Positions 29,195 to 61,905 of a stretch of DNA of 64,000 nucleotides are shown piece after piece. Each line of letters begins with the position of its first letter. The stretch's first letter is position 1. The position numbers and the translations under genes were made by a program. Source of the stretch: Argopecten irradians (lineage: Eukaryota > Mollusca > Bivalvia > Pectinida > Pectinidae). The notes beneath the pieces were generated by a model, which searched no databases, was not told the origin of the DNA, and saw only the letters and a program-made list of their open reading frames with translations. Location of the stretch: assembly GCF_041381155.1 (NCBI RefSeq), contig NC_091143.1:23215695-23279694 (forward strand), written 5' to 3'.

Positions 29195-30481
29195 TTAGTA
29201 TAGCACTCGTTCTGAAATTACAAAAGACAAACGGCATTTACATGGATGTCATGGATCGATATAACAGACAGGTACACAGGTACAGGTGTTAAAGAAAAAA
29301 GGTTCTGAATGTGTATACACTTTCCGTCCTGCAATAATGATATCATTGATCATATAAAATCAGTTTATTTCTGGAACTAATGCTATATATGTAAACGATA
29401 GAATTATATATTTCTTTAACCACCCTAGAAAGGAGGCGATTAAAACACAAATATGTACTTACGTCTATATACGTGTGGTGTGGGATTTGTGTTTTTGGGG
29501 TATCTGGAATATACATCCGGGTACCTGGGGTAGATATCTGGGTAACGTCCGTAAGCTGTAACAAATTATGGTAATATTAATCTAAACTATAGCCGGCCTG
29601 TTTACTCGCAAAATATTTAAAAGGCACATTGTTGAATGATGGTAACTATAATAATCAAATCGTATGAGAATATATTTTGATTAATAATCAACTTACTATT
29701 TCTAGCATAATCTCCAGTAGAACGTCTGTAACCTATTAAAAGGAAGTCGAATTCATATATTGTCAGTAAATATAATAACAATAAAATAAATTACATGATT
29801 GTCAACAACACAAACGCAAAATATTAACTAATAGCAAAATGATACACTACAAATTAGACTACAACTTGTCTTCCTGCTATAGTATGCTTTAATGTATGTA
29901 TGGAATGAAATTTGCTTTTATTATTAAACGAAGGTATTAAACCGTTTAGATTTAATACGAAATACCGAATAGATAACATTAGCATATGATTAAACTATAT
30001 GTTCGTCAAATTGAAAAAGTTCATTTTTTGTCGATCATATATATACTTATTTAAAATAACTACGATATGAAAAGAGATGTTATGAATGATGTCTAGATTT
30101 AATTTAAAAAAATACCTATCTTAGAGATAGAGTATTGAAAAAATCCAACTCACGTCTGCCGGTGTGTGTGCTCTGATGAGTTGGGTACATCACGGTGTCA
30201 TGGTGTCCAAGCACACGAGACAGTCCTGATCCGACATAGGCATTCCCAACCTGTTCCACACCAAGGAAACCATTCCTCACCAATCCAGAGTGGACGGAAC
30301 CATCAAAGCTATTTCTGACCAGTCCTGAGTGTCCGGAGACCAGATGTCCATTCCTGATGGTCCCATGGGGGTACCTATTCCAGTCGTCATCATGGGTAGG
30401 ATAGGTTGGGCGGCGGTAGGTCGAGGCCAAGGTCACACCGACACAAACCGTGACAATGACTGCTAAGGTTACACCGTTCAT
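29195..30481 (-). CDS. Gene 1: secreted basic Tyr/Arg/Gly-rich protein, four coding exons (157 aa)
   Basis: I read coding exons 30481-30154, 29732-29697, 29555-29463 and 29211-29195, all joined in phase 1 with GT-AG borders (donors GTGAGT, GTAAGT, GTAAGT). The product is about 157 residues. Residues 1-20 are a signal peptide (MNGVTLAVIV...TLAS) that matches the other four family members. The mature chain is basic, with SGLVRN repeats, the segment GHHDTVMYPT that lines up with GHQGPVLYPT in gene 2, and a C-terminal run of RYP repeats before VLY-stop. A noncoding first exon lies at about 31107-31070, behind a 584-bp intron that ends four bases before the ATG. A poly(A) signal AATAAA (minus strand) is at 29090-29095. 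It is likely an extracellular matrix-type protein; its function is not recognised. The C-terminal exons differ from genes 2-5, so this is the most diverged member. Confidence 0.78.
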
Positions 30482-31069
30482 TGTCCTAGCAAAGAAAAAT
30501 GGATTGATGTTAAATAAAAAGTTAACGTTTTCCCAAAGTATCTTCCATGTGTTTCAATTACAAAGTGTTTAGGATGCATGTTATGGTGACAGAACAAACA
30601 TTTACAACATATCATCAAGGGCCAGATTTGAATCGACTGAAAGTAGACCATCTGAAACCATAAGGTAAAAAACTCAAATAGTCGTGCAGTCACAGGGTTG
30701 TTTATTTAAATAAAGAATGTCAATTTAGATATTAAAATATAAATTGAAAAAAAAATTACAATAGGAAAACAAACCGGAAAAGCTCTATGATGTTCTTATA
30801 AAATTCAAAAATGCTTGCAATAGTTTGAAAAATTCCTTTAATAAGTTTATACTTTATTATTTTTATCATCATAATTGAGTAAATTCTTAATAAAACGTAC
30901 ATCCCTTCAGGATATGTCAAATAAGTGGGTGACTTTAAAAACTAAATGCTATGTAAAAGTAGTATTCAAGACAGCATCATAAATACAGCATGAATATTTG
31001 GTTATAGGTATGAGATTTCGCAGCTATTAAGTGTTAAATATCTTTAATAGGAGATTAATTTTTACATAC

Positions 31070-31139
31070 CTTGTTTGTTGTTTTCAGGCTGTTCACTGAA
31101 AATAAACTGAACGTTTCAGTTGCTCCAGCCATATTTATA
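31070..31139 (-). promoter_or_regulatory. Gene 1 TATA box and 5' UTR exon
   Basis: On the minus strand TATAAATA lies at 31139-31132, with an expected transcription start near 31107. The short noncoding exon ends at 31070 in AACAAG before the donor GTATGT (31069-31064). The same donor hexamer closes the noncoding exon of the other four genes. The 40-bp upstream module of genes 2-5 is not clearly present here. Confidence 0.6.
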
Positions 31140-31712
31140 GACAGATCTAGATACATTGACCAGGAAGAGGAAAGAATTTCTACAATAGTGAACTAATGGA
31201 CCATGCATTGTTTGAACTTTCCCATCACCACAATATTACTCAAGGCTCGGTATACCACTGATTGTATAATATTAATCACAGTCCTACCTGTATGACCTGA
31301 CATAAATCAGTTGACCTAATTACGATGTTACTGTATAAGACTGGTGTAGGCGGTTTACACTGCTTCAATGATGGCTCAGGTATTGTTTATAGGATTTTCT
31401 TTTGCGTTGTCTTGTCAAATAGATACGTCATATTGTTCTCAAATTGGCCTTGTTACTGCCCTCGTTAAGGTCATTTTAAAACCACAAATACGGTACTGTA
31501 TTCCCGTGAGTACCGATATCGATGATTAATAACGTCGCAAATTACATTTAATGATGAGGTAAATATATTAGAATGATGTCCAAACATATAAGAAATAAAT
31601 ATCCGATGCTATTTTTCTTTCATGTGTGCGGAACATTCTTATAATGTAGTCAAGTATTAAAATAAAAGCATTTAGAAAAGCTATCTCAGCTACTAGATTT
31701 GATAAAAAGGTT

Positions 31713-32077
31713 TAAAGATGCTCCACCACCGACAGAGCATAAATGGTATCCATCATTTGAGCAATAATCGGTGTTTAATCGTGTGTACATATGTCTAATT
31801 AACACAGAAAGTAATTCAAAATAATTTCTTTTGCTTTCGGGGCATGCGCAATCAGTACTGCATTCCATATAGGACATAGTGCCACGGAATTTTTCGGGGT
31901 GCAATTAATTATTTTTCGTATTTTTATCTTGAAGTAAAATTTGAAGGTCAAACTTTTCAATGGTGTTAATGGTGTAAAGTGAGTAACTTTTGTAACTGAA
32001 GAAAAATACTAAATCGTCTGCTCCTGGTTTTGATAGAGAAAAATTACCATTTGTCAGCGGTGGAGCATCTTTAAACA
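31713..32077 (+). mobile_element. MITE-like element, family M1 (copy 2)
   Basis: The terminal inverted repeats TTTAAAGATGCTCCACCACCG and CGGTGGAGCATCTTTAAA are nearly perfect. The interior matches 10853-11225 in the same orientation. It sits in the gap between divergent genes 1 and 2. Confidence 0.7.
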
Positions 32078-32856
32078 TACAGTTTTTCTTTTCTCGGATT
32101 GCGTGCGCTTGATTGTGAATTATTGTGAATCAAAGATAGCTTGATGATACTACACGTGTGAATCTACCCATTGTTTTGACCATATATATGAGAAACTGAA
32201 GCAATATTTTCCAAATTGTTTGTTTTATCAGTATGAATGTTTGCATAACAAACAAAACCAGTGCTGTCTTGAATAAATAATAGTAACACACAGTCAACAC
32301 ATTCTATTTGTTCAGAATAGCAGTATACTTATGTTATTTCTAACCCCGATTTTTTAAGATAAAGATCAAAATACCAGGTTTGGCTAATGCTTTCTTAAAT
32401 TTTGAAGATTAAAACAAAATCCGGTACGACATTTGGATGTCTGTGTTTCCTGATATTTTAGACATGACAGGTACATTTAATACACTATTTTACTGACTGG
32501 ATATCAGCTCATTCGCAAAGATAACTCTTCTGATTAAGAGGAAGATAAAACGTATTAAATCCCTGTATGCTTCAAGTTAAAAAAACTGTCAATAATATTA
32601 GGCTTTATAAAAACCACTAAAATGTATCAATAATCAATAATATAAAAATGTTATAATCTAAACTCCATATTCATTAAACCTTTCCAAGTTTGAAATAAGA
32701 ACCCAAATAAAATATGAAAGCATAATACTGCGTAAATAATTTCACTCAGTCATTTGAAATGTTTTCAACACGACTGACAATAAAATCATTCTAATACACA
32801 TGGCATTACTTTTTTTAATGATGCCTTTGGTTTGGAATTACATATTTAGAACTTAA

Positions 32857-33214
32857 AGATGCTCCACCGCTGACAAATAGTATTTTTTCACTATAAAAAA
32901 CGAGAGCAGACGATTTAGTATTTTTCTTCAGTTAAAAGTTACTTACTTAACACCATTACCAACATTGAGAAGTTTCAGCTTATAATTTTACTTCAAGTTA
33001 AAAATATGAAAAATAATTAATTGCATCCCGAAAAAATTCCATGGCACTATATCCTATATGGAATGAAGTACTGATTGCGCCTGCACCAAAGGTAAGATAA
33101 TCTTTTTTATTTTATTTTTTGTGTAAATTAGACTATATATACACGATTAAACACCAATCATTGTTAAAATGATGAATATCATTTATGCTCTGTCGGCGGT
33201 GGAGCATATTAAAA
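32857..33214 (-). mobile_element. MITE-like element, family M1 (copy 3, inverted)
   Basis: The ends are AAAGATGCTCCACCGCTGACA and GTCGGCGGTGGAGCATATT. The interior is the reverse complement of the 31.7-kb copy, so the two form a large inverted pair about 0.8 kb apart. Confidence 0.7.
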
Positions 33215-33597
33215 TACAAATAACACACAAATGATCGCTTTAAAACAAAAAGGTCTTTTAGTAAGTTAAGGTGTTTCGGTAAATTTTCTATATAATATAT
33301 TCAATACGTAATTTTTTATGAATGAAGTTTACTACGACCACATGCCTCATTAATTCATCGCCCCCAGACACTGATTTAATATGTGGTGACACTCCGTCAT
33401 TAATATCCAGTCAAGTGTTAAGTTAATTAGAATAATCACACTTCGACCTGTAACCAAACATATGAATACATTTTAAGATTTATAATTAGTTAAACTGTAA
33501 TTCGTGACGTCATAGGTGCTACCACAAAATAATAATTAATTAATCACTTTTGTTTTAAGTTGTAAAAAATACGTAGATAGTGTAAAGTAGTATATGT

Positions 33598-33697
33598 AGT
33601 CATCTTTGTATTTCCTGATATGGATGTGTATATAAAGCTTGTGATTATTGTTTGGTCATCACGGTTATAGACTTATCTCTCAGACCGACAACATAAG
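33598..33697 (+). promoter_or_regulatory. Gene 2 core promoter module and 5' UTR exon
   Basis: The 40-bp module starts AGTCAT at 33598, contains TTCCTGATATGG, and ends in TATATAAAG at 33629-33637. The likely start is at TCATC near 33657. The noncoding exon ends at 33697 before GTATGT, followed by a 723-bp intron. A TGACGTCA palindrome lies at 33505-33512, 124 bp upstream of the TATA box. The same elements and spacing occur at genes 4 and 5. Confidence 0.75.
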
Positions 33698-34424
33698 GTA
33701 TGTACATGGTATAAGTTACACGTTTGGTGGCTATGTCTTTATAACAACCTATATTGATACATGTAAATCAATACTGTTTTAAATACAGGTACAAAAGAAC
33801 TACGTTCCTACAGCTCGCGAAATTAAATCGCAATGAAAAAGTGAAAAAGGTTGTTATATTAGACATGAAAACGCGAATTGATGTCTCAAAAAAAACCCCA
33901 AAAAACCCATGACCTTATATATTTTTCCTACTTATCAATATAACAGTCTTATCTTAGATACCTTACATAGTATTTGTGACTTGTATTATATTTGCGAGGT
34001 GTTTTTTTTAGAAACAAAAGTTTTCGAAGAGTATTTCTGTTATCACTAGAAAATACATGCATATTTGGAAATCATTTTCAATCATATCAAAGACCTGTAT
34101 TAATGTAGAAAATTCCTAGCTATGAACACTTTTGACTATTAAAATCATTGGCGTTTGGTAGACTGCCAAACAATCGTGTGGCGCTTATTTCGATGTATCA
34201 TTTAATATTCGAGAGCTACAATCTGATTAAAACAAGATCTTCAAAATGCTTATGCTATGGCTTCATACCATAAGCGTAATCTGGTTTTGATAATAGTTCA
34301 AAACAAAATTGTAAATAAATTGCAACTTTTATGACAAGCCTAAATTACTACCAAACTTTACTTCCATAAAAATACGATATCCATTAATTCGTAATTTTAC
34401 TTTCTGCTTTTTTCTCTCAGAAAA

Positions 34425-35398
34425 ATGAAAGGACTTAGCCTGGCAGTTATTGTCTCGGTTTGTGTTGGTGTGGCTATCGCCTCAATCCTACCACCAAACT
34501 ACATGTCGTCAGACGATGACGGAAGCAACTACCCCTTAGGACCCGGTGAGGGCGGTATGTACCCTGGAGGGCCAGGAGGTCCTATGGGCCCGGACGATGG
34601 AATGTACCAAATGGGACCAGGAGGGGAAGGAGGTATGATTACCATGGGACCTAGACCAATCGGACCAGGATACCCTGGATCTATGGATGATGACCAGGTG
34701 CCAGTCATGAGTGGTCAGGTGGGAGCAGGATTCCCGGGTGTAGTTGTGAACGGTCAATTTCCAATGGGTTACCCCGGACTGGTAAAGAAAAGTCATGTCC
34801 CCATCAAATACCCAGGGCACACCAGACATGGCTTTATGGCAACTGTAGTATCGGCGAATAATGGTCATGTCAAAGTTATACCACGTATACCACGCCCGAA
34901 CGTCTTCTACAGACCAGGCCAAGTAGGAACCACTGTCGTCAGTCCGGGACAAATAGGATCCACCTTTGTCAGGACAGGACTAACCGGGGTTGTGGGGCAC
35001 CAGGGTCCAGTACTCTACCCTACAATCGGAAGGAAAGTTGTCTACCCAGTTATGTCAAGACCAGGTAAGTACTTACACGTTTAATTGTCGCCACCGATAG
35101 ATATATACAGATACAAAGGCGAAATCATTTTTTCTGCTTCGCGCTTCAACTTTCCCGCGAATAGATTGAAACATTAACTTAAATAGACTTTTCAAAAAGA
35201 TAAACCAATGTTCACGTTGAATTCAACTCAATCTGGCGTTGAATTTTACCATTTCTTCCGACATAAAGGGGGCTGTATTCTTTTCTCAAATTGTTGTTTT
35301 CTACATTAGGTTTCTCATTAACATCATACATATGTAAACTACTGAAGTACTGATGATGAATCTAATATATAACTTTTCTATTTTCTACAGGATATTAA
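34425..35398 (+). CDS. Gene 2: secreted Gly/Pro/Met-rich repeat protein (215 aa)
   Basis: Exon 2 runs 34421-35064 and starts four bases before the ATG. The last coding exon begins at 35391 and adds only GY before TAA, joined in phase 1 by GTAAGT and TTTTCTACAG. Residues 1-20 are a signal peptide (MKGLSLAVIVSVCVGVAIAS). The mature chain starts ILPPNY, carries an acidic DDDG patch, about three copies of an 11-residue Met/Gly/Pro repeat, the conserved block HTRHGFMATVVSANNG, PGQxG repeats, and the C-terminal motif GRKVVYPV. It is the closest relative of genes 4 and 5 but has far fewer 11-residue repeats. It is probably an extracellular structural protein; I do not recognise a named family. Reading through the donor would give a false 219-residue end (GKYLHV). 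ATTAAA at 35645-35650 is a possible poly(A) signal. Confidence 0.85.
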
Positions 35399-36084
35399 AA
35401 TCTGTGATATACACTCTCTGGAGGTAAACAGAAGAATGAAGAAAGATATATCGGTGTTATTAGTGGAAAGTTCTGAAACATATCTGACTGCCGCCAATGA
35501 ACCAGTTGTCTCTATTCATCTTATAACAAATCCATGTTTTAAAATCGATTTTGTATGTCGTTTGTCTCATGTACGTTTATGATCTCATTCATTTAAAAAA
35601 ATGTTTCATGTCCTTTGTAAACATTTAAATTATTGGTTTTCATCATTAAACACATTTTCTTTAAGACATATACTGTTTTTGTTTCTATTCTATTTGACAT
35701 CAGTACAAGTCAAGTCTATAAATCGAATGAATGCAAAAAAATTACTTGGATAATGAAAACCAGTTTATGACAAAATTATTACTTTCTCGTTCAGATATAC
35801 GGTCATGTCGTAAATATCATAAGACGTTAAAAATAATGATTGCCTCCGTAGACAAATGAGCCAGATAGTTATATAATAAATGCAACCTGAAGGTTCATGG
35901 TATTTAAGATTAATTCGTTTAATGGTGGAATATAAATGAGTTTATAGTGGATTTTCCACATGTAAATGACTCACACCCAATAACGACAAATAAACGAAGA
36001 ATATGCTAAGTGTCAACCAAAAATTTGAATGTGGTAAGTTTTGGTTTGATCTATATTGGTTAACGCCCTGTAAACCTGTCAGGG

Positions 36085-36300
36085 TCAATTCCTAAAAATA
36101 AGCTTTGTATGCAAAATAATATATCTTACAGAGAGGCACAATGCTTTGTGATATTGCTATAACATTACGATATTTTGTATTATATTGGATCCTCGTAAAA
36201 CTTAAAAATGACCTTTGTATGCAAAATAATATATCTTACAGAGAGGCACAATGCTTTGTGATATTGCTATAACATTACGATATTTTGTATTATGTTGAAT
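36085..36300. repeat. 110-bp direct tandem duplication
   Basis: CTTTGTATGCAAAATAATAT starts at 36103 and again at 36213, and about 87 bp are almost identical in the two copies. Confidence 0.75.
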
Positions 36301-36304
36301 CCCT

Positions 36305-38485: not shown

Positions 38486-38489
38486 TTTT

Positions 38490-40280
38490 GCATCCTTCTA
38501 TTATGTGGTGATATCCATCCAAATTCAGGCCCCAACCAAAACATTCAGCTAGAAAATATAACTTTATGTCACATAAATATATGTTCATTGCGTAACAAGC
38601 TCCACATCCTTGAAGCCGAATATTCTGATTTTGACATATTATGCATATCCGAGACACACCTCGGTACTACCATATCCGATATTGATATTGCATTAGAGCA
38701 CTATGGTCATGTATTAAGGAGGGATAGAGATAACAACGGTGGTGGTGTACTTATATACGCTAAAACTAACATTAACGTTAGACGTAGGTTAGATCTTGAA
38801 TGTAATAATCTTGAACTGATATGGTCTGAAATCACAACACATAATAAAACTATTCTACTTGGCTGTTTATATCGACCCCCTAATTCCTTAGTTAATTACT
38901 GGGACCTACTTGATAATAATATTAATAAAGTTATAGACACACAAAAAGACGTTATTCTTGTAGGTGATATAAATCAGGATATGTTAAATCTTACTCCTAA
39001 TTCACATCTTCACAGACTTTTACTAAAATACGGATTAGAAAATACTGTTTCTGAACCTACTAGGATTACTTCGTCTTCTTCAAAATCATTAGATGTAATT
39101 ATCACTAATAATACTAATTTAACGACTAATACCACTGTACATACTCCATCCTGCAGCGATCACTCTCCTATAAGTTCCGATATAAATTTTAAATCATTTA
39201 AAAACATGCATACAAAAAGACTTTCTTATACTTTAATACTGCAGACTATGATGGGACAAATGAATATCTTCGTTCTATTGATTGGGCTGTCGAACTACAA
39301 GGAAGTATTGATAATATGAACTGATAAAATCTTAGCAGCTATTAACCTATTTATACCTCATAAAACAGTAACTATCAGAACCAATGATAAATTTGGATGA
39401 CAAATGATATACGAGTAATGATACGTAGAAGAAATCGTCAACATTCTAAAGCCAAATTATATAACACTCCTGCCTCATGGAACAAATTTAGAACCATTCG
39501 GAATCAGGTTATTTCTTCAATCCGTGATGCAAAAGAAAAATATCTATCTAAACTTCAGTCCTCTTTAATTGATAAATCTATGCCGCCTGGTAAATGGTGG
39601 CGAATAGCGAAGTCAGTTATGAATCTTAATAACAAAAATGAAACCAACTAATTATTAATGGTGATCTAAAACTACATCCTATCGACAAAGCTGAATCATT
39701 CAATGAATACTTTACATCTATATCTGTTTCTAATAAGAATGTTGACGATTTACCTCCTGACAGTCCTCAGCCACAGCATACATTTTCCGCTTTCGACATT
39801 ACATAACAAGACATAATTGGTCAACTTCATCTTCTCAACACCAATAAACCTTCAGGTCCTGATACTATTCCTCCTCAATTCATAAAGGGTGTCCCTCAGT
39901 CAATTATAAAACCTCTTTCATGAAATATTTAATAATTCTATATCAACTGGTATGCTTCCTGATGTGTGGCAAAATGCCAATGTTACACCCATATATAAAG
40001 GTAAAGGTTTACGAAGTGACCCTTCTAGTTATAAACCTATTTCTGTGACTCCTATTTTTAGCAAAATTTTGGAAAAAATTGTGTTTAAAAATCTTTTTAA
40101 CTTCCTTTCCAGACATAACATAATCTCCGAATATCAATTAGGATTTTTTACCTAAAGTTTCAACAACCTATCAATTATTAGCTATATATGACACAATTGT
40201 AATAACATTTGGATAATGGCAAAGAAGGGAGATTGATATTTTGTGATATAAGCAAAGCTTTTGATCGTGTCTGTTCCTTT
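38490..40280 (+). mobile_element. CR1/jockey-like LINE fragment (endonuclease and start of reverse transcriptase)
   Basis: Frames read through GDIHPNSGP (38507-38533), the kind of motif that precedes the endonuclease in CR1-type LINEs. Next comes an APE-type endonuclease: INICSLRNK, ISETHL, NNGGGVLIY, GCLYRPPNS, GDINQD, PTRIT and CSDHSPI (38560-39190). The linker region with PPGKWWRIAK follows near 39,590, then the start of the reverse transcriptase (TPIYKGKG, SSYKPISVTP, KILEKIV near 39,985-40,110) and CDISKAFDRV near 40,240-40,275. Several frame changes and stops separate these parts, so the copy is dead. It ends abruptly at about 40280, where a fragment in the opposite orientation begins. 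Confidence 0.85.
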
Positions 40281-41045
40281 ACTATTAAAGGCAAGTCCTA
40301 AGTGGTAATGAGATTCATTTTCTCCAATTACATTATTATTAAACAAAAGGTGTGGATAATCACTGTTTTGTCTACGACTAAAATTCATTGCTATTGTTTT
40401 ATTAGAACTGCAGAGGGATGAAAGTATTTTTAAGTTGGAGGAACATAAAGATATTTACATTGTTGGTAATAAAAACATCTATCAATGTATCAGTGGTATT
40501 AGTAATACGCGTCGGCGTTTGTATAAGATTTTTTAATTGATATTTATTTAAAAGCTTAAAAAGATGAGAAGAAGGTTTCATCTTTAGTAGGTCGACATTA
40601 ATATCACCAGTAATTATAATGTTATGAGTAGTATTAATAAGATTATCTAATGTATTATCAAGTTTGTTCCAATATTCAGCTGCTGTATTGGAAGGTCTAT
40701 ACAAACAACAAAGAAGTATTTTTTTTATTTGAGGATCGAATTTCTAAAATAATATGTTCAATAATTTCAGTTTCTAAATCACTTCTGTGATTAACAAGGA
40801 TATTACTTTTTGTGTATATCAAATGCCACCACCATGCTGAAGCTGTCTATCTCTTCGATACAAATTAGGATGAGATCTTAGATCATTATTCAATACATTA
40901 GTGTCCAATTGCGTTTCAGTTAAGCATATGATATCCTTATCGGAAAATTCTGCATCAACTAAATCAATTTTGTTCCTTAGAAACCTTACATTTAGGTGTA
41001 GTATTGATAGATCATTGAAGCAGTATTTTTCATCAGAAGAAGTCG
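40281..41045 (-). mobile_element. Second LINE fragment in inverted orientation
   Basis: The minus strand reads, from 41,040 downward, an endonuclease start (LHLNVRFLRNKID, IICLTETQLD, RRDRQ, GGG), then YRPSNTAAEYWNKLDN, GDINVDLL and TPTRIT to about 40,500. It then jumps to a late reverse transcriptase segment (YPHLLFNNN, NESHYHLGLAFNSKG) at 40,390-40,290. The middle of the element is missing. It is related to, but not the same copy as, the plus-strand fragment it abuts. Confidence 0.8.
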
Positions 41046-41695: not shown

Positions 41696-41699
41696 TTGC

Positions 41700-43470: not shown

Positions 43471-44325
43471 GTTCACAAAACAATCAAACAATGAGTACAA
43501 AACCAGATTTCTTTTGTTTTAATACTGTTTATAACAATGAGTACAAAGCCAGATATATTTTGTTCACATACTGTACACAACAATGAATACAAAGCCAGAT
43601 ATATTTTGTTCACATACTGTTCACAACAATGAGTACAAAGCCAGATATATTTTGTTCACATACTGTACACAACAATGAGTACGAAGCCAGATTTATTTTG
43701 TTCACATACTGTTCACAACAATGAGTACAAAGCCAGATTTATTTTGTTCACATACTGTTCACAACAATGAATACAAAGCCAGATTTATTTTGTTCACATA
43801 CTGTTCACACAACAAAGAGTACAAAGCCAGATATATTTTTGTTCACATACTGTTCACAACAATGAGTACAAAGCCAGATATATTTTGTTCACATACTGTA
43901 CACAACAATGAGTACGAAGCCAGATTTATTTTGTTCACATACTGTTCACAACAATGAGTACAAAGCCAGATTTATTTTGTTCACATACTGTTCACAACAA
44001 TGAATACAAAGCCAGATATATTTTGTTCACATACTGTTCACAACAATGAGAGTACAAAGCCAGATTTATTTTGTTTACATACTGTACACAACAATGAATA
44101 CAAAGCCAGATATATTTTGTTCACATACTGTACACAGCAATGAATACAAAGCCAGATTTATTTTGTTCACATACTGTTCACAACAAAGAGTACAAAGCCA
44201 GATATATTTTGATCACATACTGTTCACAACAATGATTTCAAAGCCAAATTTATTTTGTTCACATACTGTTCACAACAATGAGTACAAAGCCAAGTTAATT
44301 TTGTTCACATACTGTTCACACAACT
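43471..44325. repeat. 46-bp minisatellite, about 18 copies
   Basis: The unit is AATGAGTACAAAGCCAGATA followed by TATTTTGTTCACATACTGTA and CACAAC, at 46-bp steps with small length changes. Because 46 is not a multiple of 3, the long frames across it are artefacts. It lies between the orphan exon at 43.1 kb and gene 3. Confidence 0.85.
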
Positions 44326-44949
44326 GTTTAAATGTTAACAAAAAATTATGTACATTTGTATCATTTGCAAACTTAGTGTTTAGTCCCATCTAAACATAAT
44401 GTTTTCTTTCCACATATGTGATGAGTCAAATTTCTATGCAATTTGTTAAAGTCGGCTCCTAATGGTTATGGTATCAAGTTTGTTTAAAAGTAGAGGATTT
44501 GTGATAAAAAGAATCACTATTAAATCAAGATTTTGCTTTGTATTCTTATTGAAGCGTTTTTCTTAAATTGCGTGTTTGAAAGTGTATTTAAGGAAAATAA
44601 GGACATTATGATAGAGTACATGTTGTATAATATGTTTCTCTTTGAAGCAGGAAATACTTTAATTAAGTTAAACTTTTTATATCTTTTGTAGAGTTTACAA
44701 CGGTTATATGCCTCATAAATTCCCTGCCAGACATTGCTGTAAGTATTCTGACGTGTGAAATGAGCCTTAGAAAGATAATTCTTCGACCAGCACCAATATA
44801 TATATATATATATATTGAGAATTATAATTAGTTTAAGTATGATTTGTAAAGTCATTGCAGATTATTAACAAAAAATAATCATTGATTTATTATCTTTGTC
44901 ATGAATAAATAAAAAACCAACTCGTAGTTTAGAATGCAAATTTGTCTTT

Positions 44950-45061
44950 AGTCATGTTTCTATTTCTGGAAATAAATCTGTATATAAAGGATCGAGTTCT
45001 TCTTCGGTTATCGCAATCCTTAACAAAGACATTCATCGCCGACTATCAGCCAGATTACCAG
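44950..45061 (+). promoter_or_regulatory. Gene 3 core promoter module and 5' UTR exon
   Basis: AGTCATGTTT begins at 44950 and TATATAAAG lies at 44981-44989, the same 40-bp span as in genes 2, 4 and 5, though the TTCCTGATATGG core has diverged. The likely start is near 45009. The noncoding exon ends at 45061 before GTATGT, and a 474-bp intron follows. Confidence 0.65.
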
Positions 45062-45539
45062 GTATGTCTCTCATATGAGATCATGATTATGATTATGAGA
45101 CACTTTAATCAATATTCAATGTAAAATCTAAAGTATTATTAAGTTAAACTGCTAGGGTTAAAACAAGGAAACGTTTTGGAGTCGGATTTATCGCCAGAAA
45201 GCACATTCGATTTCAAACACTTTGGATCAAAGAACTATTCAGATAACATCTTATTACATAGCTTAAGAGTTTCGACCTGTTTTTCTTTCAAATATATTTT
45301 TATTGAAAGATGACCGAATTTGTAGTTTATTGAAATTAATGAAACTGGTTTGATGATGTCGTTATTCGCACTGAATTCGTGATAACGTGAAAGCCTAAAC
45401 AGGCTTTGAAACGTTAAAGCGAAATGCTGTTTACCAATGCTGTATATTTTATAACAAACCCCGGAAAGCTAGCAAAACATAACTCAAACCAAATGTTGAT
45501 GTGATGTGAATATTTTTATTATTTGTTTTTCTCAGAAAC

Positions 45540-45965
45540 ATGACCGGGCTCAGTTTGGCACTTGTTGTCTCAGTTTGTGTCGGGGCGGCTTTCGCCTCCA
45601 TTATACCAGATGAAGAGCTCAACTTTCCTATAATTCCTCCAAAGGGGATCATACCAGTTCCCCCAGTTTACCCAGGACCAAAAGTAGATGATGACGATTA
45701 CCACCGGTATCCGGGGTACATCAGATATCCACCCTACCCCGGACATGGATACGCCGGTTATGGATACGCCGGACATGGATTCCCTGGTCATGTATACCCC
45801 GGACATGTTGGACCAAAAGTTATCCCAGGCGGGTATCACTACATCCCCAGGGGTGGACCACGTGGAGGAAGACGAGGTCCCATAGCGTTTCCCGGATATG
45901 GAAGGAAGATTGTCTATCCAATTATACCAAGTAAGGACAAGTTTAACCATTCACGTAAACTGTAA
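45540..45965 (+). CDS. Gene 3: secreted Gly/Tyr/Pro-rich protein
   Basis: Exon 2 begins at 45536 after TTTTTCTCAG, and the ATG at 45540 opens a 20-residue signal peptide (MTGLSLALVV...AFAS) like that of its neighbours. The mature chain has IIPP/PVPP and DDDD segments, then YPGHGYAGYGYAGHGFPG-type repeats, a basic RGGPRGGRRG stretch, and YGRKIVYPIIP, which matches the C-terminal motif of genes 2, 4 and 5. The end is unresolved. By family logic a donor GTAAGG at 45931 in phase 1 ends the exon at residue 130, and candidate last exons start at 46144 or 46687, with poly(A) signals at 46254-46259 and 46805-46810. Unspliced, the frame stops at 45965 (141 aa), with AATAAA at 46002-46007. It replaces the Met-rich repeats of genes 4/5 with Gly/Tyr repeats. 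Confidence 0.75.
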   Translation: MTGLSLALVVSVCVGAAFASIIPDEELNFPIIPPKGIIPVPPVYPGPKVDDDDYHRYPGYIRYPPYPGHGYAGYGYAGHGFPGHVYPGHVGPKVIPGGYHYIPRGGPRGGRRGPIAFPGYGRKIVYPIIPSKDKFNHSRKL

Positions 45966-50214: not shown

Positions 50215-51870
50215 GGAACCGTTACATATTGACTGGACCGCAATATCTGTCTAATACAGATGTAAATACGAAATGGTCTTTAATACGAAATAATTTAAAG
50301 GACAATGAAGATAAATATGTACCATCTAAAACTTTTAAATCAGGAAAAATGAAGCAACATATCATTCCGTTGGATACCGAAACTAAAGAGAAAATAAAAC
50401 TCAAGAACTCTTTGGAAAGCGATTAAAAAGAGATTACAGAGAACTTCTATTTCCACAAGAAAACGAACGCGATTTTACGCAATTAGAGTGTGAATTAGCC
50501 AAGAGGTCGAAGGAAAACCTGAATTTAATCTGGCAATAAATCGGTAAAGGTGATCTCCACACGGATTACAGCAACGAAACATCAGCGAAAACTTACAGAG
50601 ATTGTGGAAAAGTTTATAGAGACGGGAATGGTACCAACAGGACGGAAAGAGGCACATGTATGTGCGATCTACAAAAAAAGGGAACAAATCTCTCGCTGGA
50701 ATTTACAGGCCCGTCAGTCTTACGCCAGTTGTGTGCAAAATAATGGAAACGTTTGTTCGGCAACACTTGGTAAATCATATGAAAGCCAACTCCCTGTTCA
50801 GTAACAAGAAATATGGTTTTATATCGGGAAGATCAACAACTCTTCAACTCCTTACATTTTTTGACCAATGAACTAAAGCACTAGAAAATGGAAAATCTGA
50901 CTGTATCTGTATCGATTTTCAGAAGGCGTTTGAAACCGTACCACACAAAAGATTACTTAAAAAACTAAAAGCATATGGAATACATCACACTGTCGTTAAA
51001 TGGATAGAGGATTTCTTTCACGATATGCAGCAGCGAGTTGTAATTAATGGAAATAATTCGGTTTGGAGACCCGTCACATCTGGAGTACCACAAGGGTCTG
51101 TAATAGGTCCGATATTGTTTGTTGTAAACATAAATGACCCCCCCCCCCCCGGATACTCTGCACTCTGAGACATACCTGTTCGTGGATGACACGAAAAATA
51201 TTCAGAGTTATCACTGAAGAAAATGATCAAATCATTCTACAAGAAGATCTCCATAATATATTAGCATGGTATGATAAATGGCTCAAGAAATTGCATCCTG
51301 GGAAATGTGTACACATGCACTAAGGAAGGACAAGTATATACAACTCTAAAGAAATCACAAGTGGAAAACGACTTTGGAGTAATGATCGATAGCAGTCTCG
51401 AATTCGAAAACCATATATTTGAAAAAATCAAGAGAGCAAATACGATGATGGCAATAATAAGAAGAGCATTTATAAATTCATGGATCAGAAACCTTCCTAT
51501 TATTATATAAATCATTAGTGAGAACTCATCTTGATTTCGCATGTGCTATCTGGTTTCCGTACAAAGCGAAATACATCGAAGGGCAACAAAGCTGGTCGCT
51601 GAAATTAAAATCCTTTCATACATAGACAGACTAAAATATCTACAGTTAAATGTACCAACATAGGCGTTCAGGAGACAGCGAAGAATATGATAGAAATTTA
51701 AAAAATAACCAACGGAATGTACGATCGTGAAGTCACGGGATTTTTGAAGATGTGGAAAGATGTTTCGTCGCGGTCCGGAAATAGAGGAAATTCTTTAAAA
51801 GAATACCCTCAACAATGTCACCACTGAAAAAGAGAAAAAAAAACAGTTTTTCACTGCGTACTGCAGCGGT
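50215..51870 (+). mobile_element. Degenerate CR1/jockey-like LINE reverse transcriptase
   Basis: Over several frames one reads the pre-RT linker (WSLIRNNLKDNEDKYVPSK), then YRPVSLTPVVCK near 50,710, GFISGRSTTLQLL near 50,818, [18 protein letters not shown] near 50,918, [14 protein letters not shown] near 51,079 and FVDD at 51179-51190 (the FADD box with A to V). Next come FGVMIDSSLEFENHI near 51,375 and the C-terminal region. Stops, frame changes and a run of C's near 51,140 show the copy is inactive. It breaks the unit 1 homology and ends just before a 16-bp tandem repeat. Confidence 0.82.
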
Positions 51871-51891: not shown

Positions 51892-51990
51892 TTCGGACTA
51901 TCGGGCCTTCGGACTATTGGGCCTTCGGACTAACGGGCCTTCGGACTATTGGGCCGTAGGACTAACGGGCCTTCGGACTATTGGGCCGTA
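51892..51990. repeat. 16-bp tandem repeat, six copies
   Basis: The unit TTCGGACTATTGGGCC alternates with variants (TATC, TAAC, GTAGG start). It is GC-rich and sits between the end of the 50-kb LINE and the start of unit 2. Confidence 0.8.
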
Positions 51991-52414
51991 GGGATATAAG
52001 GGTGTCACCTTCGGTTGCAACCTTCATCAATACGTTTATATTAAAAAACAGAGTCAAACAGAACAAACACTGCGTATCACATGTATTCTAATTAATATCT
52101 TTATCATTATCTAGGTGTGCGTATATAGAGTGTGTATAATGGATGTGAATTATGGTAATCATATGACGACAGGCGTTGGTGTTAGAAGTCCTGACAAGCT
52201 TAACAATTCCATCAGTAATATTCAGTCGCATATGTACATTTCATTACAACGACAACCCTTCGACCAGTACTTGTATAAATTCATTACCATGTTTTATTAT
52301 TAGCTCAACTCCGTGACGTCATACGAAAGCGAGGAGTTACATATCACGACGTAAGAACCTACTCATTTCCTTGCATGTTGATGAAAACGCAGTTTGTCGT
52401 GTAGATCTATAGTT

Positions 52415-52526
52415 AGTCATGTTTGTACTTCCTGATATGGAACTCTATATAAAGTCGAGGGTTCTGACTTGGTCATCACATTCTTACAGCAGCAGTTACC
52501 ACAGCAACCAACAGCTAGTAAACAAA
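52415..52526 (+). promoter_or_regulatory. Gene 4 core promoter module and 5' UTR exon
   Basis: The module starts AGTCAT at 52415 and ends TATATAAAG at 52446-52454. The likely start is TCATCA near 52474. The noncoding exon ends at 52526 before GTATGT, and a 452-bp intron follows. TGACGTCA is at 52314-52321, 132 bp upstream of the TATA box. Confidence 0.75.
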
Positions 52527-52983
52527 GTATGTACATTGTGTTATGTAACATTACAGTATTCAAACCGTTGTTAAGGCTAACAAACTTTGGCCAATGTCAT
52601 CACTTGTCTCAAGATAAGCAATAACATAGGCAAAGCATGAAGTAAATTGTTTTCAATGAAAAAGTGATTCGATCATCTTTTTCAGAAAATCGTTTTCTTT
52701 TTAATCCTAGGTATATGGAGATTATAAACGAACAATTTAAGCAAGTGTGATGAAATGTGTTGATACATTGTAGAATGTTGCTGTACGTTCATATTTGTTT
52801 TTACTTATTTCGATTACTGTTTCTCGTCTTTCCTTACTCTAATTCTAGTGTGAATCGCCTGATTTGTTCTATTTAACCCCGTATATTTTGATACATGAAG
52901 GTGATATCTATTACACTTAACTGATGTTACCATTGCTGCTATATAAATACATTTGTATTTGTTTTTGTTTTGTTTTAGCAAAA

Positions 52984-54275
52984 ATGGATGGACTAAACCT
53001 AGCAATTATTGTCTCAGTGTGTGTTGGTGCAACTATCGCCTCAATTCTACCTCCCAACTACCCTCCTCCAGGCGACGATGGGGACATGTACCCTATGGGG
53101 CCAGGAGGTCCAGGGGTTATGGTACCTATGGGGCCGGAAGGGGGAATGTACCAAATGGGATCAGGAGGCGAAGGAGGTATGCTTCCCATTGGACTAGGAG
53201 GCCAAGGGGCTTTGTTACCTTTGGGACCTGGAAGCGAAGGAGCTATGCTTCCCATGGGACCAGGAGGTCAAGGGGCTATGGTACAAATGGGCCCAGGAGA
53301 AGACGGAGGTATGATCGCCATGGGACCTGGACCGATTGCGCCAGGATACCCAGGTTCTGTGGATGATGACCAGATGCCAATTATGAATGGTCCTATAGGA
53401 ACAGGACGTTCAACACCAGTAATGAATGGACCAGTAGTAGGTCACTCAGGAATGTTAATCAACGGTCAGGTTTCTGTGAGTTACCCTGGACTAGTCAGGA
53501 CAAATCATGTCGGCATTAAATTCCCTGAACACACAAGAAACGGCTTCATGGCAACTGTTGTATCTTCCAAAAATGGCCAGCTCACAATTCAGCCAGCCGT
53601 GAATACCTTTGCTAGACCAGGACAATCAGGGACCACTATCGTTAGACCAGGACAGTTAGGAGCCACCTTGGTCAGACAAGGACAGCCAAGAACCACCCTT
53701 TTCAGGACAGGATTACCGAGGATGGTGGGGCATCAGGGTCCCGTACTGCACCCCGCACTCCGACGAAAAGTTGTCTACCCAGTTATACCAAGACGTGGTA
53801 AGCTTTAAATGATTATATATGAACAAATGATAATCTCTACACATATTGGGTAACTATCGCTTGATAGGGAGTACTCTTCATGTCAGAGACAACAAGATAA
53901 GTACAAGTGAATTATGTTGGCATTGATTTTGATTCGAACAAAAGTTTATTTAAGAAAATTACCTTCGCCCGAATATTTCCTCGTTTCTCCATATCAGATT
54001 ATGTAAATTGAAGATACAACAAAGATAAAACCTAACTCAATTATATACAAATATTTCTTCCAATAATGTACCGTTATTTAGAGTTTTCATTATTTACAAA
54101 CACCTTTCCGTTATCTAATTGATATAATAAAATAGTCTAAGAATGTGGAATAATGAACGTCAGGTATATTATTGAACACATAATAGTGAATGAAATTGAG
54201 GATTTATTGATTATACCGAATCATGATCATCAATCATGGAAACTTATCGAAATTAATTTTTCCACAGGTTATTGA
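52984..54275 (+). CDS. Gene 4: secreted Met/Gly/Pro-rich repeat protein (273 aa)
   Basis: Coding exons are 52984-53797 and 54268-54275, joined in phase 1 (donor GTAAGC, acceptor TTTTTCCACAG). The second adds only GY before TGA. Residues 1-20 are the signal peptide. Residues 35-113 hold eight copies of an 11-residue repeat of the form M-x-x-M-G-x-G-x-x-G-G/A (one copy shortened to 9). A DDD patch is at 127-129, the conserved block HTRNGFMATVVSSKNG at 183-198, four roughly 10-residue xRPGQxGTT repeats at 210-249, and RRKVVYPVIP at 260-269. There are no cysteines after the signal peptide. It is probably an extracellular structural or matrix protein. An in-frame ATG at 52924 lies in the intron pyrimidine tract and is not the start. 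A poly(A) signal AATAAA is at 54613-54618. Confidence 0.88.
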
Positions 54276-56231
54276 ATCCCGTGATAGAGCCCACTGTATC
54301 ATCAGACATTGGAATTTACTGGCGTAATTCATTTCCATGGTAATCTAAAGCATAAAGAACTTTACATTACGTCTGACATATACAATGCATGATCATACAA
54401 GTGAACGTCATTAGAACGAAAAACACCATCCGGATGAGGCGAGAATGGGAAGGGCAAACAAATATGCAATTCAATGCAGCACAGCTTTCATCGTCATCCA
54501 TGAACGAATCCGTAATTTACCTCACATATATGTATCTGTGTCATGAACTTTTGTGGTTTCTGTGTTTTGTAAACTTTATCGTTTGTTTTATTTAAATGTT
54601 TAAATTTTATATAATAAAATATATTTTTCTACAAAGTGTATGCTTGACTTGTATTGTTTTAAATTATCATTTTGATAACAAAAACTATCATTAACCCAAA
54701 ATAAATCGGACGAAAGCGACAATCACCATAAATAACACGGATTACCCAACGTCTCCAAAGTGAGATTATTGTGGCGAAGAAAACGTAATGTTTACCTTGG
54801 TTCTAGCACAATGATTAAGGTTGCACTGCAGTCCTCAAATCTTCTGGATTACTGATTGGTTTGATGTGATCTACTCAAACAGAATGTATCATATATATGA
54901 TAGAACCACATTAGTAGATTATTACAACTTATCGCGTAAATAAAACATCATGATCTTGTTGGTTAGTAATCAACGCAGAAGATTTGTGTTGTTTTGCCAA
55001 TTCTTCCGATACGTCGGAATTGATATTGCCAGTGCAATGTGGCGATAAAAAGGAAACTACACAAGATCATAAAGAAAAAAAAAAGATTAATAACTTAATG
55101 TATTCAGTGAAAAACACACGTCAAAATTTATTTATAAACGTGAAAGGAAGAATCGTAGTTAAGTGACATGAGATAATCTTTTGTCGAATCCCGTATATTA
55201 AAATAAAATTTAGGAGGATGTTATTCATTCCATTGTAAAGAATGTCGTGAAAAAGGTAACGGATAGTTTTGATTCATTGATGGAGGCTGCAAAGCTCAAT
55301 CTTTCCAGATTACATATTGCTTTGGTATGAGCCACTTAAAATGTACGAAAAGTAGAAACAGGAACAACAAAACGTCACTGAAGCTTGTGTCTTTTGTATC
55401 TTCTAAAAAATAGCTTTACGAGTGTGAAACAATATTCCATATCCAACAACTCCGAGTTGTGTGACCTGTTTCTACTACAATGAAATCATCTACAAGAAGG
55501 CCAAAATAAGATGAATTTATTTTCCGACATATGCAAAAAAGGTGTAATAATGTCATCATAAGCAAACATTCAAAACTCTTAGTTGCTTAAAGAATGTATT
55601 AATAACAAATAATTTTTATTATGTTCAACACTTCACTTCCATGCATTCATACTCACTGAACGTCGTTTTGAATCGAGATTTCTATAGGCACGTGTACTTG
55701 AACAATTAACCGCAAAGTGATTGTTGTCGATCTACATTCGGAAATGTCTACGGCAAAGTGACATATACTTCCCGCCAAATAATTATCAAACCATTGTTAT
55801 AAATAAAATCCATACCTCACCTAGTCTGTGGCATTTAACTTGAAGAAATTTAAATTATTTTTTTCTAATAATTACATAAACGACTGGCAACTTGTTTGCC
55901 TTCTGTTTGCTGCTCATGTACTATTTTACCATAACACTTTGAAAATGTAACTTGTCCAGATTTACCATAGATTCATATAACTGATATTTCAATATAAAAT
56001 AAGACCCAAACTTTTTTTTATAAAATCTGTTTTCGTGCAAGTATCAACAGCTTTGAGACATCTTGGATAACCAAATCCGTTTCTGTTATCGCCATGAGTA
56101 TACAACAAATAAGATATAATCATTTCATGAAAATTATACACGGTGATGCAACAGCAATAATTATATTAACATATGTAAAAAGGTAAGAGTAAACGCAATG
56201 ATGTATAATATTTTTCTTTGTTTCATACTTA

Positions 56232-57244
56232 AACCGGCTTTCTGATTGGCAAATTCGTTTTTTGCATACTACTGTGAAAAAAATAAATAACAAGGACATA
56301 ATCATTCAGATCCCCCGCCAATGGAGATATCAAAGCTGAAGTAAGTTTGATTGTGGAGACTTATGTGTATGGAAAAAAATCAGGAAAAAGTGCAAAAAAT
56401 GAAAACCTAAAAATAGCAAAAGGTACTACTAGACAAAATTAATGTGTCTATGAAGTGGAAATATCTCTGCTGGTTTTAGAGTTATGCTCCGGAAATGAAC
56501 CTGCTACAAAAATATGATAATTTCAGCAATGTTTCTATGGTTACAGAAAAAAGCACAAAAAGCGAAAACCTAAAAATAGCAAAAGGCACTACTAGACCAT
56601 AAGAACAATGTGGCTATGAAGTTTTATGGAAATATCTCTGCTGGTTTTAGAGTTGTGCTCCGGAAACGATTCTTATACAAAAATCTGCCATTTTCAGCAA
56701 TGTTTCCATGGTTACGGAAAAAATGCAAAAAATGAAAACCTAAAAATAGCAAAAGGCACTACTAGACCATAAGACCAATGTGTGTGTGAAGTTTCGTGGA
56801 AATATCTCTACTGGTTTTACAGTTATGCTCCGGAAACCATTCGTACGGACGGACGGACGGACGGACGGACGGAACCCATTTGTATATCCCCCGCCAACGT
56901 CGTTGGGCGGGGGATAAAAATAATCCGAGAATGGTGCCAAATCCCGACATTATCGTGACGTTACAATAGAGACATTGACGTTGCGTATTGATTCGGAAAA
57001 AAAGAGTCTATTGGAAAATCATTTGAATAATACGAGTAAATATATTTCATTTTAACAAGTAGTCTAGAAAATTAATGAGAAGCATTGATGTCAATATATA
57101 TATTTTTTAATTTCATAGGGTTATAATAGAAATTTGGTTTGCAAATCTTTTATGCAGAATCCGCTACGCGGATTCGAACAGTTTGCAACCAAAATTTCTT
57201 TCATGCCCCGATGAAATAAAAAAAAAATAGTGACATCAGTGCTT
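56232..57244 (+). mobile_element. Foldback repeat family R1, copy 2, interrupted by the Pearl-like element
   Basis: It starts CCGGCTTTCTGATTGGC. After the insertion it continues GAGAATGGTGCC, TTGACGTTGCGTATTGATT, and ends with the foldback at 57080-57244, centred on AATCCGCTACGCGGATT. It is the same family and order as 28693-29055 in the opposite orientation. Confidence 0.7.
56310..56915 (+). mobile_element. Pearl-like (nonautonomous Helentron-type) element
   Basis: The 606-bp insertion starts ATCCCCCGCCAATGG and ends in the hairpin ATCCCCCGCCAACG / CGTTGGGCGGGGGAT (56886-56915). Its core is about 2.7 tandem copies of a 163-170 bp unit (TAAAAATAGC at 56408, 56571 and 56741), followed by seven ACGG repeats at 56845-56873. 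A roughly 160-bp tandem core plus an ACGG microsatellite is the published layout of bivalve Pearl elements. The matching site in unit 3 (63,800) lacks it. Confidence 0.7.
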
Positions 57245-57418
57245 GAATACAAAGCAAGTGTCATACCTTAACTAGTTCAATCCTGTTTTAGATTCAACGT
57301 GTGAACATGCAAATGATGTAACAAATGGATTAAAAAGTGTATTGGATTAACGGTGTTACACATATAATGCGATATATGTTCTACATGTACTACTAACGCA
57401 CAACATTCGATATATAGA

Positions 57419-57590
57419 GGTTACACAACGAGTGGTTGTTAAATATGGAATTTATTCCATACTAGTGAGTTATTTTTTAAAAGTTACAAAAGACACGAGC
57501 TGTGGCGAGTGTCTTTTGTAACATTTAAAAGAAAACTTACGAGTGTGGAATAAATGCCATATCGAATAACCACTCGTTGTCGTGTGACCT
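57419..57590. mobile_element. Foldback element R2
   Basis: The left arm AGGTTACACAACGAGTGGTT pairs with AACCACTCGTTGT and TGTGACCT on the right. The inner arms include TTACAAAAGACAC / GTGTCTTTTGTAA around a short loop. Single-arm relatives lie at about 55390-55480 and 62920-62985 (GTGTCTTTTGTA, TTACGAGTGTG, GTTGTGTGACCTGTTTCTAC). Confidence 0.55.
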
Positions 57591-57599
57591 GTTTCTACC

Positions 57600-59619: not shown

Positions 59620-60034
59620 TTTTCGGTTGCGACCTTCACCAATACTTTCATATTAACAAGTGTCAAACAGTTCAAATACTATATATCACATGCAATCTAA
59701 TTAAAATCTATATATTCATTTAGGTGTGTGTATATACAAATATGTAGTGTGTGTACATTGGTTGTAAATTATGGTAATGATATGACGACAGACGTTGGTG
59801 TTAGAAGTCCTGACAAGCTTAACAATTCCATCAGTAAATATTCAGTCGCATATATACATTTCATTACAACGACAACCCTTCGACCAGTACTTGTATAAAT
59901 GTATTACCATATTTTATAATTAGCTCAACTCCGTGACGTCATACGATAGCGAGGAGTTACATATCACGACGTAAGAACCTACTCATTTCCTTGCATGTTG
60001 ATGAAAACGCAGTTTGTCGTGTAAATCTATAGTT

Positions 60035-60146
60035 AGTCATGTTTGTACTTCCTGATATGGAACTGTATATAAAGTCGAGGGTTCTGACATGGTCATCACA
60101 TTCTTACAGCAGCAGTTACCACAGCAACCAACAGCTAGTAATCAAG
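60035..60146 (+). promoter_or_regulatory. Gene 5 core promoter module and 5' UTR exon
   Basis: AGTCAT is at 60035 and TATATAAAG at 60066-60074, nearly identical to gene 4. The likely start is near 60094. The noncoding exon ends at 60146 before GTATGT, and a 451-bp intron follows. TGACGTCA is at 59934-59941. Confidence 0.75.
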
Positions 60147-60602
60147 GTATGTACATTGTGTTATGTAACATTACCGTATTCTTACCGTTGTTAAGGCTAA
60201 CAAACTTTGGCCAATGTCATCACTTGTCTCAAGATAAGCAATAACATAGGCAAAGCATGAAGTAAATTGTTTTCGATGAAAAAGTGATTCAATCATCCTT
60301 TTAAGAAAATTGTTTTCCTTTTAAACCTAGGTATATGAAGATTCTAAACGAACAATTTTAAGCAACTTTGATGAAATGTGTTAATACATTGTAGAATGCT
60401 GCTGTACGTTCATATTCTTTTTACTTATTTCGATTACTGTTTCTCGTCTTTCTTTACTCTAATTCTAGTGTGAATCGCTTGATTTGCTCTATTTATCCCC
60501 GTATATTTGATACATGAAGGTGATATCTATTACATTTAACTGATGTTAATATTGCTGCTATATAAATACATTTGCATTTGTTTTTGTTTTGTTTTAGCAA
60601 AA

Positions 60603-61905
60603 ATGGATGGACTAAACCTGGCAATTATTGTCTCAGTGTGTGTTGGTGCAACTATCGCCTCAATTCTACCTCCCAACTACCCTCCTCCAGGCGACGATGG
60701 GGACATGTACCCTATGGGGCCAGGAGGTCCAGGGGTTATGGTACCTTTGGGACCGGAAGGGGGAATGTACCAAATGGGATCAGGAGGCGAAGGAGGTATG
60801 CTTCCCATTGGACTAGGAGGCCAAGGGGCTTTGTTACCTTTGGGACCTGGAAGCGAAGGAGCTATGCTTCCCATGGGACCAGGAGGTCAAGGGGCTATGG
60901 TACAAATGGGCCCAGGAGAAGACGGAGGTATGATCCCCATGGGACCTGGACCGATTGCGCCAGGATACCCAGGTTCTGTGGATGATGACCAGATGCCAAT
61001 AATGAATGGTCCTATAGGAGCAGGACGTTCAACACCAGTAATGAATGGACCAGTAGTAGGTCACCCAGGAATGTTAATCAACGGTCAGGTTTCTGTGAGT
61101 TACCCTGGACTGGTCAGGACAAATCATGTCGGCATCAAATACCCTGGACACACCAGAAACGGCTTCATGGCAACTGTTGTATCTTCCAAAAATGGCCAGC
61201 TCACAGTTCAGCCAGCCGTGAATACCTTTGCTAGACCAGGACAAAAAGGGACCACTATCGTTAGACCAGGACAGTTGGGAGCCACCTTGGTCAGGCAAGG
61301 ACAGCCAAGAACCACCCTTTTCAGGACAGGATTACCAAGGATGGTGGGGCATCAGAGTCCCGTACTGCACCCCGCACTCCGACGAAAAGTTGTCTACCCA
61401 GTTATACCAAGACGTGGTAAGCTTTAAATGATTACATATGAACAAATGATAATCTCTACACATATTGGGTAACTATCGCTTGATAGGGAGTACTCTTCAT
61501 GTCAGAGACAAAAAGATAAGTACAAGTGAATTATGTTGGCATTGATTTTTATTCGAACAAAAGTTTATTTAAGAAAATTACCTTCGCCCGAATATTTCCT
61601 CGTTTCTTCATATTAGATTATGTAAATTGAAGATACAACAAAGATAAAACCTAACTCAATTATATACAAATATTTCTTCCAGTAATGTACCGTTATTTAG
61701 AGTTTTCATTATTTACAAACACCTTTTCGTTATCTAATTAATATAATAAAATATAATCAAGATTGGAAAAATTGGATTAAGCTTGAACATCAGGTATATC
61801 ATTGAACACATAATAGTGAATGAAATTGAGGATTTATTGATTATACAGAATCATGATCATCAATCATGGAAACTTATCGAAATTTATTTTTCCACAGGTT
61901 ATTGA
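60603..61905 (+). CDS. Gene 5: secreted Met/Gly/Pro-rich repeat protein, recent duplicate of gene 4 (273 aa)
   Basis: Exons 60603-61416 and 61898-61905 have the same splice sites, phase and Gly-Tyr-TGA ending as gene 4. The product has the same domain order: signal peptide 1-20, eight 11-residue Met/Gly repeats, HTRNGFMATVVSSKNG, PGQxG repeats and RRKVVYPVIP. By eye I count about 19 base differences from gene 4 over the 814-base exon, roughly ten of them changing the protein at nine residues. Examples are F180Y and E182G, which restore the YPGHTR form also seen in gene 2. There are no breaks, so both copies look functional. The poly(A) signal is the weaker ATTAAA (62243-62248), where gene 4 has AATAAA. 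Confidence 0.88.

Follow-up and report, generated by a model that had tools for sequence, protein, structure and literature searches.

A tandem cluster of five paralogous genes for putative secreted structural proteins in a 64-kb window of the Argopecten irradians genome

In this article, we discuss five neighbouring genes on contig NC_091143.1 of Argopecten irradians (NCBI RefSeq assembly GCF_041381155.1, forward-strand positions 23,215,695 to 23,279,694), a stretch of 64,000 nucleotides that we call the 64-kb window and in whose own numbering all coordinates are given. The five are intact open reading frames (ORFs) with a common secretion signal, gene 1 lying on the minus strand and genes 2-5 on the plus strand, and together they make up four distinct paralogs and one recent duplicate, the pair of genes 4 and 5. 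Our reading, to which we give a probability of roughly two in three (0.68), is that these paralogous animal genes form a tandem cluster encoding structural proteins that are small, secreted, free of cysteine and largely disordered. The first-pass annotation of this DNA had proposed a fast-evolving structural secretome, and gene structure, constraint, composition and predicted disorder bear out a clustered, secreted and diverging family of structural type, with the reservation that gene 1 sits less easily in a low-complexity group than its neighbours.

Gene 1 (coding exon 30116-30481, minus strand; recognised by ORF, homology and composition) encodes 121 amino acids, about 101 of which form a short, basic mature chain of Gly, Arg, Thr, His, Leu, Val and Ser, with 9% His and a single Met. 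On the plus strand, gene 2 (34425-35084; ORF and composition) encodes 219 amino acids, divided into a Gly/Met/Pro N-terminal part and a basic Val/Gly/Pro C-terminal part, and gene 3 (45540-45965; ORF and composition) encodes 141, its mature chain being rich in Pro, Gly, Tyr and Ile and devoid of Met, with Tyr at 12%, a level reached in gene 3 only. Gene 4 (52984-53808, plus strand; ORF, tandem repeat and composition) and its recent copy gene 5 (60603-61427, plus strand; ORF, composition and structure model) encode 274 amino acids each, again with a Gly/Met/Pro repeat region and a basic C-terminal part. The N-terminal parts of genes 2, 4 and 5 contain 30-31% Gly, 11.7-13.1% Met and 18-19% Pro; a 33-bp tandem repeat was detected in genes 4 and 5, and the 11-residue Gly/Met/Pro repeat is clear in these two and shorter in gene 2. 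Low complexity, which had been attributed to the family as a whole, is strong in genes 2, 4 and 5 as this repeat, present in gene 3 as Pro/Gly/Tyr sequence, and weak in gene 1. Gly reaches at least 25% over 80 residues in four of the five proteins (0.250 in gene 3, exactly at the line, and 0.325, 0.362 and 0.362 in the others) and in none of 11 control ORFs of at least 100 codons from the window. All five mature chains lack Cys, have isoelectric points of 9.3-10.0 and masses of 11-26 kDa, and show no transmembrane segment by hydropathy, the highest 19-residue values being 0.55-0.98.

Secretion signal and gene layout

The signal peptide claimed for the family, M-x-G-x-x-LA-x-x-V-x-VCVG-x-x-x-AS, is present in all five genes, with a hydrophobic core (residues 6-18) whose mean hydropathy is 2.6-3.0; going by the -3,-1 rule, we presume that the predicted cleavage may fall after residue 19 and not after residue 20. 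At the DNA level, the core GTNTGYGTNGG has five matches in the window, one per gene, against 0.48 expected, and five or more were obtained in none of 100 shuffles. Since a profile built from members recovers those same members by construction, four signal peptides were removed in turn, with gene 4 set aside as a near copy of gene 5, and every held-out signal was regained by the profile of the other three at expectation values (E) of 6e-8, 3e-12, 4e-9 and 1e-11, compared with 0.43-0.98 for the top-ranking unrelated ORF of each search. A sixth family member was not found in the window, either with the signal-peptide profile or by a coding-DNA search with E up to 1.

The annotation had also called for a noncoding first exon and an intron ending just before the ATG, and here TATA box, donor and acceptor lend support in all five genes, the splice sites themselves being predicted from the sequence. 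Each gene is laid out as a TATA box, a short noncoding exon, a GTATGT donor, one putative intron and the coding exon; the donor lies 67-79 bases downstream of the TATAAA start, the introns would measure 450-722 bp, and the acceptor stands 4-6 bases upstream of the ATG. A block around the TATA box is common to genes 2-5. The proximal promoter block of gene 2 (33427-33637, plus strand), which ends in TATATAAAG at 33629-33637, resembles that of gene 3 (44767-44989) at 67% over 226 alignment columns, and promoter alignment together with the TATA-donor pattern places the gene 3 TATA box, also TATATAAAG, at 44981-44989 (plus strand); the same pattern locates the plus-strand TATA boxes of genes 4 (52446-52454) and 5 (60066-60074). 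The putative plus-strand introns run from 33698 to 34419 in gene 2 (GTATGT...CTCAG) and, as judged by splice signals, from 45062 to 45534 in gene 3, from 52527 to 52977 in gene 4 and from 60147 to 60596 in gene 5. For gene 1, the TATA-donor pattern points to a TATA-like box at 31132-31139 on the minus strand, followed by a putative intron of 584 bp (30486-31069, minus strand) with its GTATGT donor at 31069-31064 and an acceptor TAG ending at 30486.

Taken as a single pattern, TATAAA-N(55-80)-GTATGT matches the two strands of the window at exactly five places, one before each gene, where 1.39 are expected and at least five occurred in 1 of 100 shuffles; the pattern was framed after the sites had been seen, and the figure therefore shows how specific it is inside the window and should not be read as independent confirmation. 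A search of the window revealed no orphan promoter. The in-frame ATGs at 52924 and 60543, upstream in genes 4 and 5, would give ORFs of 294 amino acids but were rejected as start codons, because the added codons would cross the polypyrimidine tract and the acceptor and because genes 1, 2 and 3 all begin MxG. A sequence resembling the cAMP response element (CRE), TGACGTCA, occurs at 33505, 52314 and 59934, 124-132 bp upstream of the TATA box in each of genes 2, 4 and 5. Eight such sites are present in the window against 0.76 expected, and five of the eight lie away from those promoters.

Duplication, divergence and the surrounding repeats

The proteins of genes 4 and 5 are identical at 265 of 274 residues, and DNA self-alignment places the two genes in the plus-strand copies of a segmental duplication, the left copy at 52010-57113 with gene 4 and the right copy at 59622-64000 with gene 5, reaching the end of the window. 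Identity over the three aligned pieces of the block is 94.5%, 92.5% and 92.8%, and the left copy alone has an extra stretch of about 0.6 kb separating the second piece from the third. The coding sequences show 19 differences in 825 positions, the introns 25 in 448, the downstream regions 50 in 1032 and the upstream regions 36 in 395, so that coding sequence differs less than intron (Fisher, p 0.003), less than the downstream region (p 0.004) and less than the three noncoding parts pooled (p 2e-5). The NG86 estimates of nonsynonymous (dN) and synonymous (dS) divergence are 0.016 and 0.044 for genes 4 and 5 (dN/dS 0.37) and 0.22 and 0.73 for genes 2 and 5 (dN/dS 0.31), ratios that the repeats make approximate. 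These sequence comparisons lean towards purifying selection in working genes, with modest weight for the youngest pair. Genes 4 and 5 could instead be two alleles placed as neighbours by the assembly and imitating a duplication. Retroposed copies were rejected because the putative intron is retained in the copies. That the ORFs might be spurious, or dead copies, is a thought encouraged by a window rich in transposon fragments and tandem repeats, but it is scarcely credible in the face of a common signal, common splice signals and promoter, and coding sequence that diverges less than its flanks.

Beyond the signal peptide, the mature chains have themselves kept traces of common descent. Their local alignment scores beat all 2000 residue shuffles in each of the six pairs tested (ten are possible; the pairs with gene 4 were excluded), in a test that removes composition and not repeat order, and BLASTP aligns the mature chains of genes 3 and 2 at E 7e-7 and those of genes 1 and 5 at E 3e-4. 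Homology of both signal peptides and mature chains across the family is supported by these alignments. The three pieces of mature sequence said to be shared by the family turn out to be distributed more narrowly: RKVVYP is found in genes 2, 4 and 5, with RKIVYP in gene 3 and neither in gene 1; GHxxxVxYPT is exact in genes 1 and 2 and not exact in genes 3, 4 and 5; and HTRxGFMATVVS matches genes 2, 4 and 5 by pattern and is absent from genes 1 and 3, the residue before HTR differing between gene 4 (EHTR) and genes 2 and 5 (GHTR). A motif that had gone unmentioned, DD-x(1-5)-YP, is present in all five proteins, at residues 30-38 in genes 1, 2, 4 and 5 and at residues 50-58 in gene 3; it was chosen by eye, and for genes 1-5 it appeared by chance in 9, 56, 138, 16 and 21 of 5000 residue shuffles.

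An AlphaFold2 model of gene 5, built on the five-member alignment, has a signal helix at residues 3-21 and, in the GFMATVVS region, two short strands (190-196 and 199-204) joined by an NG turn; its mean predicted local distance difference test score (pLDDT) is 34.5 with no residue above 70, and although an alignment of five sequences is shallow and makes low pLDDT weak evidence of disorder, the model is consistent with a chain that is unstructured beyond the signal helix. Short secreted chains may also serve as precursors of neuropeptides, hormones or antimicrobial peptides, and in that direction point the two occurrences of GLVRN in gene 1, the two to three dibasic positions per protein and the Gly-dibasic sites of gene 1 (one), gene 2 (one) and gene 3 (two). 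However, dibasic sites are scarce, too poorly positioned for an array of processed peptides, and bracket no repeated peptides, Gly-dibasic sites are absent from genes 4 and 5, and the lack of Cys speaks against disulfide-rich peptides; we consider precursors of this kind very unlikely.

Several points weigh against a single family of low-complexity structural proteins under constraint, and many of them concern gene 1. Its upstream region was not recovered by the promoter profile of genes 2-5, and its first exon is placed by the TATA-donor pattern and spacing for that reason; it carries no C-terminal RKVVYP motif; its alignment with gene 5 is limited to short segments; and it is not Gly-rich, its best 80-residue window standing at 0.163. 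To these we add the repeat order that residue shuffling leaves in place, the shallow alignment behind the model, a weaker ratio for genes 4 and 5 by YN00 (dN 0.019, dS 0.032, dN/dS 0.61), and the pairs with genes 1 and 3, for which dS is at least 1.5 (saturated) or not computable.

The genes stand among many repeats. Between the opposed genes 1 and 2 lies an inverted pair of a 365-bp repeat (31711-32074 and 32853-33214, 85%), with a third copy at 10856-11220 (78%), and this inverted repeat may mark an inversion that turned gene 1. Fragments of endonuclease and reverse transcriptase genes of the long interspersed nuclear element (LINE) type occur at 38486-40152, 40405-40743 and 50620-51165; when ten ORFs were compared with Pfam, three matched endonuclease or RVT_1 above the cut-off and two more matched RVT_1 below it. 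Satellite-like arrays are found at 26491-27047 (61-bp unit, about 9 copies) and 43487-44320 (46-bp unit, 18 copies). Two self-complementary elements, at 28692-28847 (88.7%) and 57425-57580 (82.1%), are probably short inverted-repeat transposons; the first sits within a longer element that recurs near 57 kb and near 63.9 kb. A block at 16213-18974 contains two internal repeats, 16213-16614/17219-17620 (93%) and 16618-17223/18377-18974 (89%).

Known systems and the likely setting

Searches for recognised relatives returned little. None of the five proteins matched Pfam with E up to 10, and NCBIfam gave a single match (gene 3, E 0.25), far below the cut-off and judged to be chance; comparison with PDB by sequence, covering genes 1, 2, 3 and 5 (gene 4 was omitted as a near copy of gene 5), gave best E values of 1.8, 0.97, 0.13 and 0.15 to unrelated molecules, again taken as chance. 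Neither Rfam families at the gathering threshold nor tRNA genes were detected in the window, and no relative was confirmed among 23 pattern matches in viral contigs or 30 in prokaryotic contigs. A literature search for novel Met-rich or Gly-rich shell families yielded no match, one on the promoters of Pinctada matrix genes pointed to work on a nacrein promoter (PMC3439604), and the excerpts of PMC8032588 and PMC10543319 hold none closer to the family. Twelve short peptide words from the family proteins had no match in literature text, a result of little weight, as the search did not extend to figures and supplements, where most such sequences appear.

By description, and not by sequence, the family resembles the shematrins and KRMPs of pearl oysters, which are secreted, repetitive, low-complexity, duplicated and diverged families. 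Shematrins have a basic C-terminus of the Lys-Lys-Lys-Tyr type, an ending found in none of the five family proteins; the acidic DD-x-YP motif and Met/Pro repeats are distinctive features of the present family. Abductin, the elastomer of the scallop hinge, is Gly/Met-rich with an FGGMGG repeat, and the family shares its elastomer-like composition, whereas the repeat itself occurs 0 times in all five proteins. Turning to published work, shematrins and KRMPs in Pinctada are described as lineage-specific families of repetitive, low-complexity secreted proteins that have duplicated extensively and diverged (PMC4897951), and Pinctada fucata carries its shell-matrix genes in tandem clusters, with five Gly-rich shematrin genes in tandem in two scaffolds (PMC4759782). 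We take the pearl-oyster parallels as likenesses of style, a lead and no identification; by this analogy, the cluster would evolve in the style of pearl-oyster shematrins, adding an example to a known pattern and establishing no new one.

The likeliest setting, we infer, is mollusc shell, ligament, periostracum or byssus, and our reading can be narrowed in two ways. The first, to which we assign somewhat less than an even chance, is that these are matrix proteins of bivalve shell, ligament or periostracum, akin in role to insoluble Met-rich scaffold proteins and Gly/Tyr-rich prism proteins. It draws on the Gly/Met/Pro repeats and the Met content (12-13%) of the N-terminal regions encoded by genes 2, 4 and 5, and on the tandem shell-matrix clusters of Pinctada fucata (PMC4759782), in whose nacre, prism and ligament most of the top-scoring insoluble proteins had a Met-rich region (PMC7591529). 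Met-rich proteins are common in the insoluble shell and ligament matrix, where a scaffold role has been proposed (PMC7591529); among them, MRNP was found in nacre (PMC4660305), and NU-5, of about 180 kDa, has regions rich in Glu, Met and Ser (PMC7591529). The likeness to MRNP, LMP and NU-5, again one of description, lies in Met-rich segments that three of the five family proteins possess; the mature chain of gene 3 has no Met and that of gene 1 only one, and mature proteins of the size found here are far from the roughly 180 kDa of NU-5.

Basic, Gly-rich, Cys-free chains suit adhesive secretions generally, and the second way to narrow our reading, which we regard as unlikely, is to byssal or other adhesive or mucus proteins from a foot or skin gland. 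Silk-like proteins are on record from the byssus of mussels, the tube cement of polychaetes and the hinge ligament of scallops, the class being delimited by SilkSlider as having at least 25% Gly over 80 residues, a signal peptide and no transmembrane segment (PMC4944945). The present family has a probable secretion signal and attains the Gly level in four of five proteins, gene 1 falling short; the class is compositional and no homology family. Against an adhesive role stands Tyr, which attains 12% in gene 3 only.

How such a locus might work can be sketched on our reading of a secreted structural family. A compact unit of TATA promoter, short noncoding exon, one intron, secretion signal and acidic DD-x-YP motif would have multiplied through duplication of DNA; the mature region would have diverged, probably through gain and loss of repeats, giving rise to Gly/Met/Pro forms (genes 4 and 5, and gene 2), a Gly/Tyr/Pro form (gene 3) and a short basic His-containing form (gene 1). 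The genes would be transcribed from the shared type of promoter in a secretory epithelium and their products released into extracellular material, to be assembled there through flexible Gly/Pro/Met segments and through contacts in which the acidic cluster at the N-terminus meets the basic C-terminal part, possibly with oxidative cross-linking of Tyr. A bolder proposal, tentative and on balance doubtful, is that what is conserved here is less the mature protein than a cassette for delivery, made up of promoter, noncoding exon, intron, signal peptide and the acidic DD-x-YP motif, and that the locus generates new extracellular materials: with every duplication of the cassette a mature chain of its own chemistry (Gly/Met/Pro elastomer-like, Gly/Tyr or basic/His) would be carried along, and the differing chains would be co-expressed and co-assemble via their shared acidic and basic ends. 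If the genes are expressed in a matrix-secreting tissue, the cluster would provide a natural series, from old paralogs to a fresh duplicate, in which chemistry changes behind a constant promoter and secretion signal, and biomaterials work could draw on its short Gly/Met/Pro and Gly/Tyr sequences.

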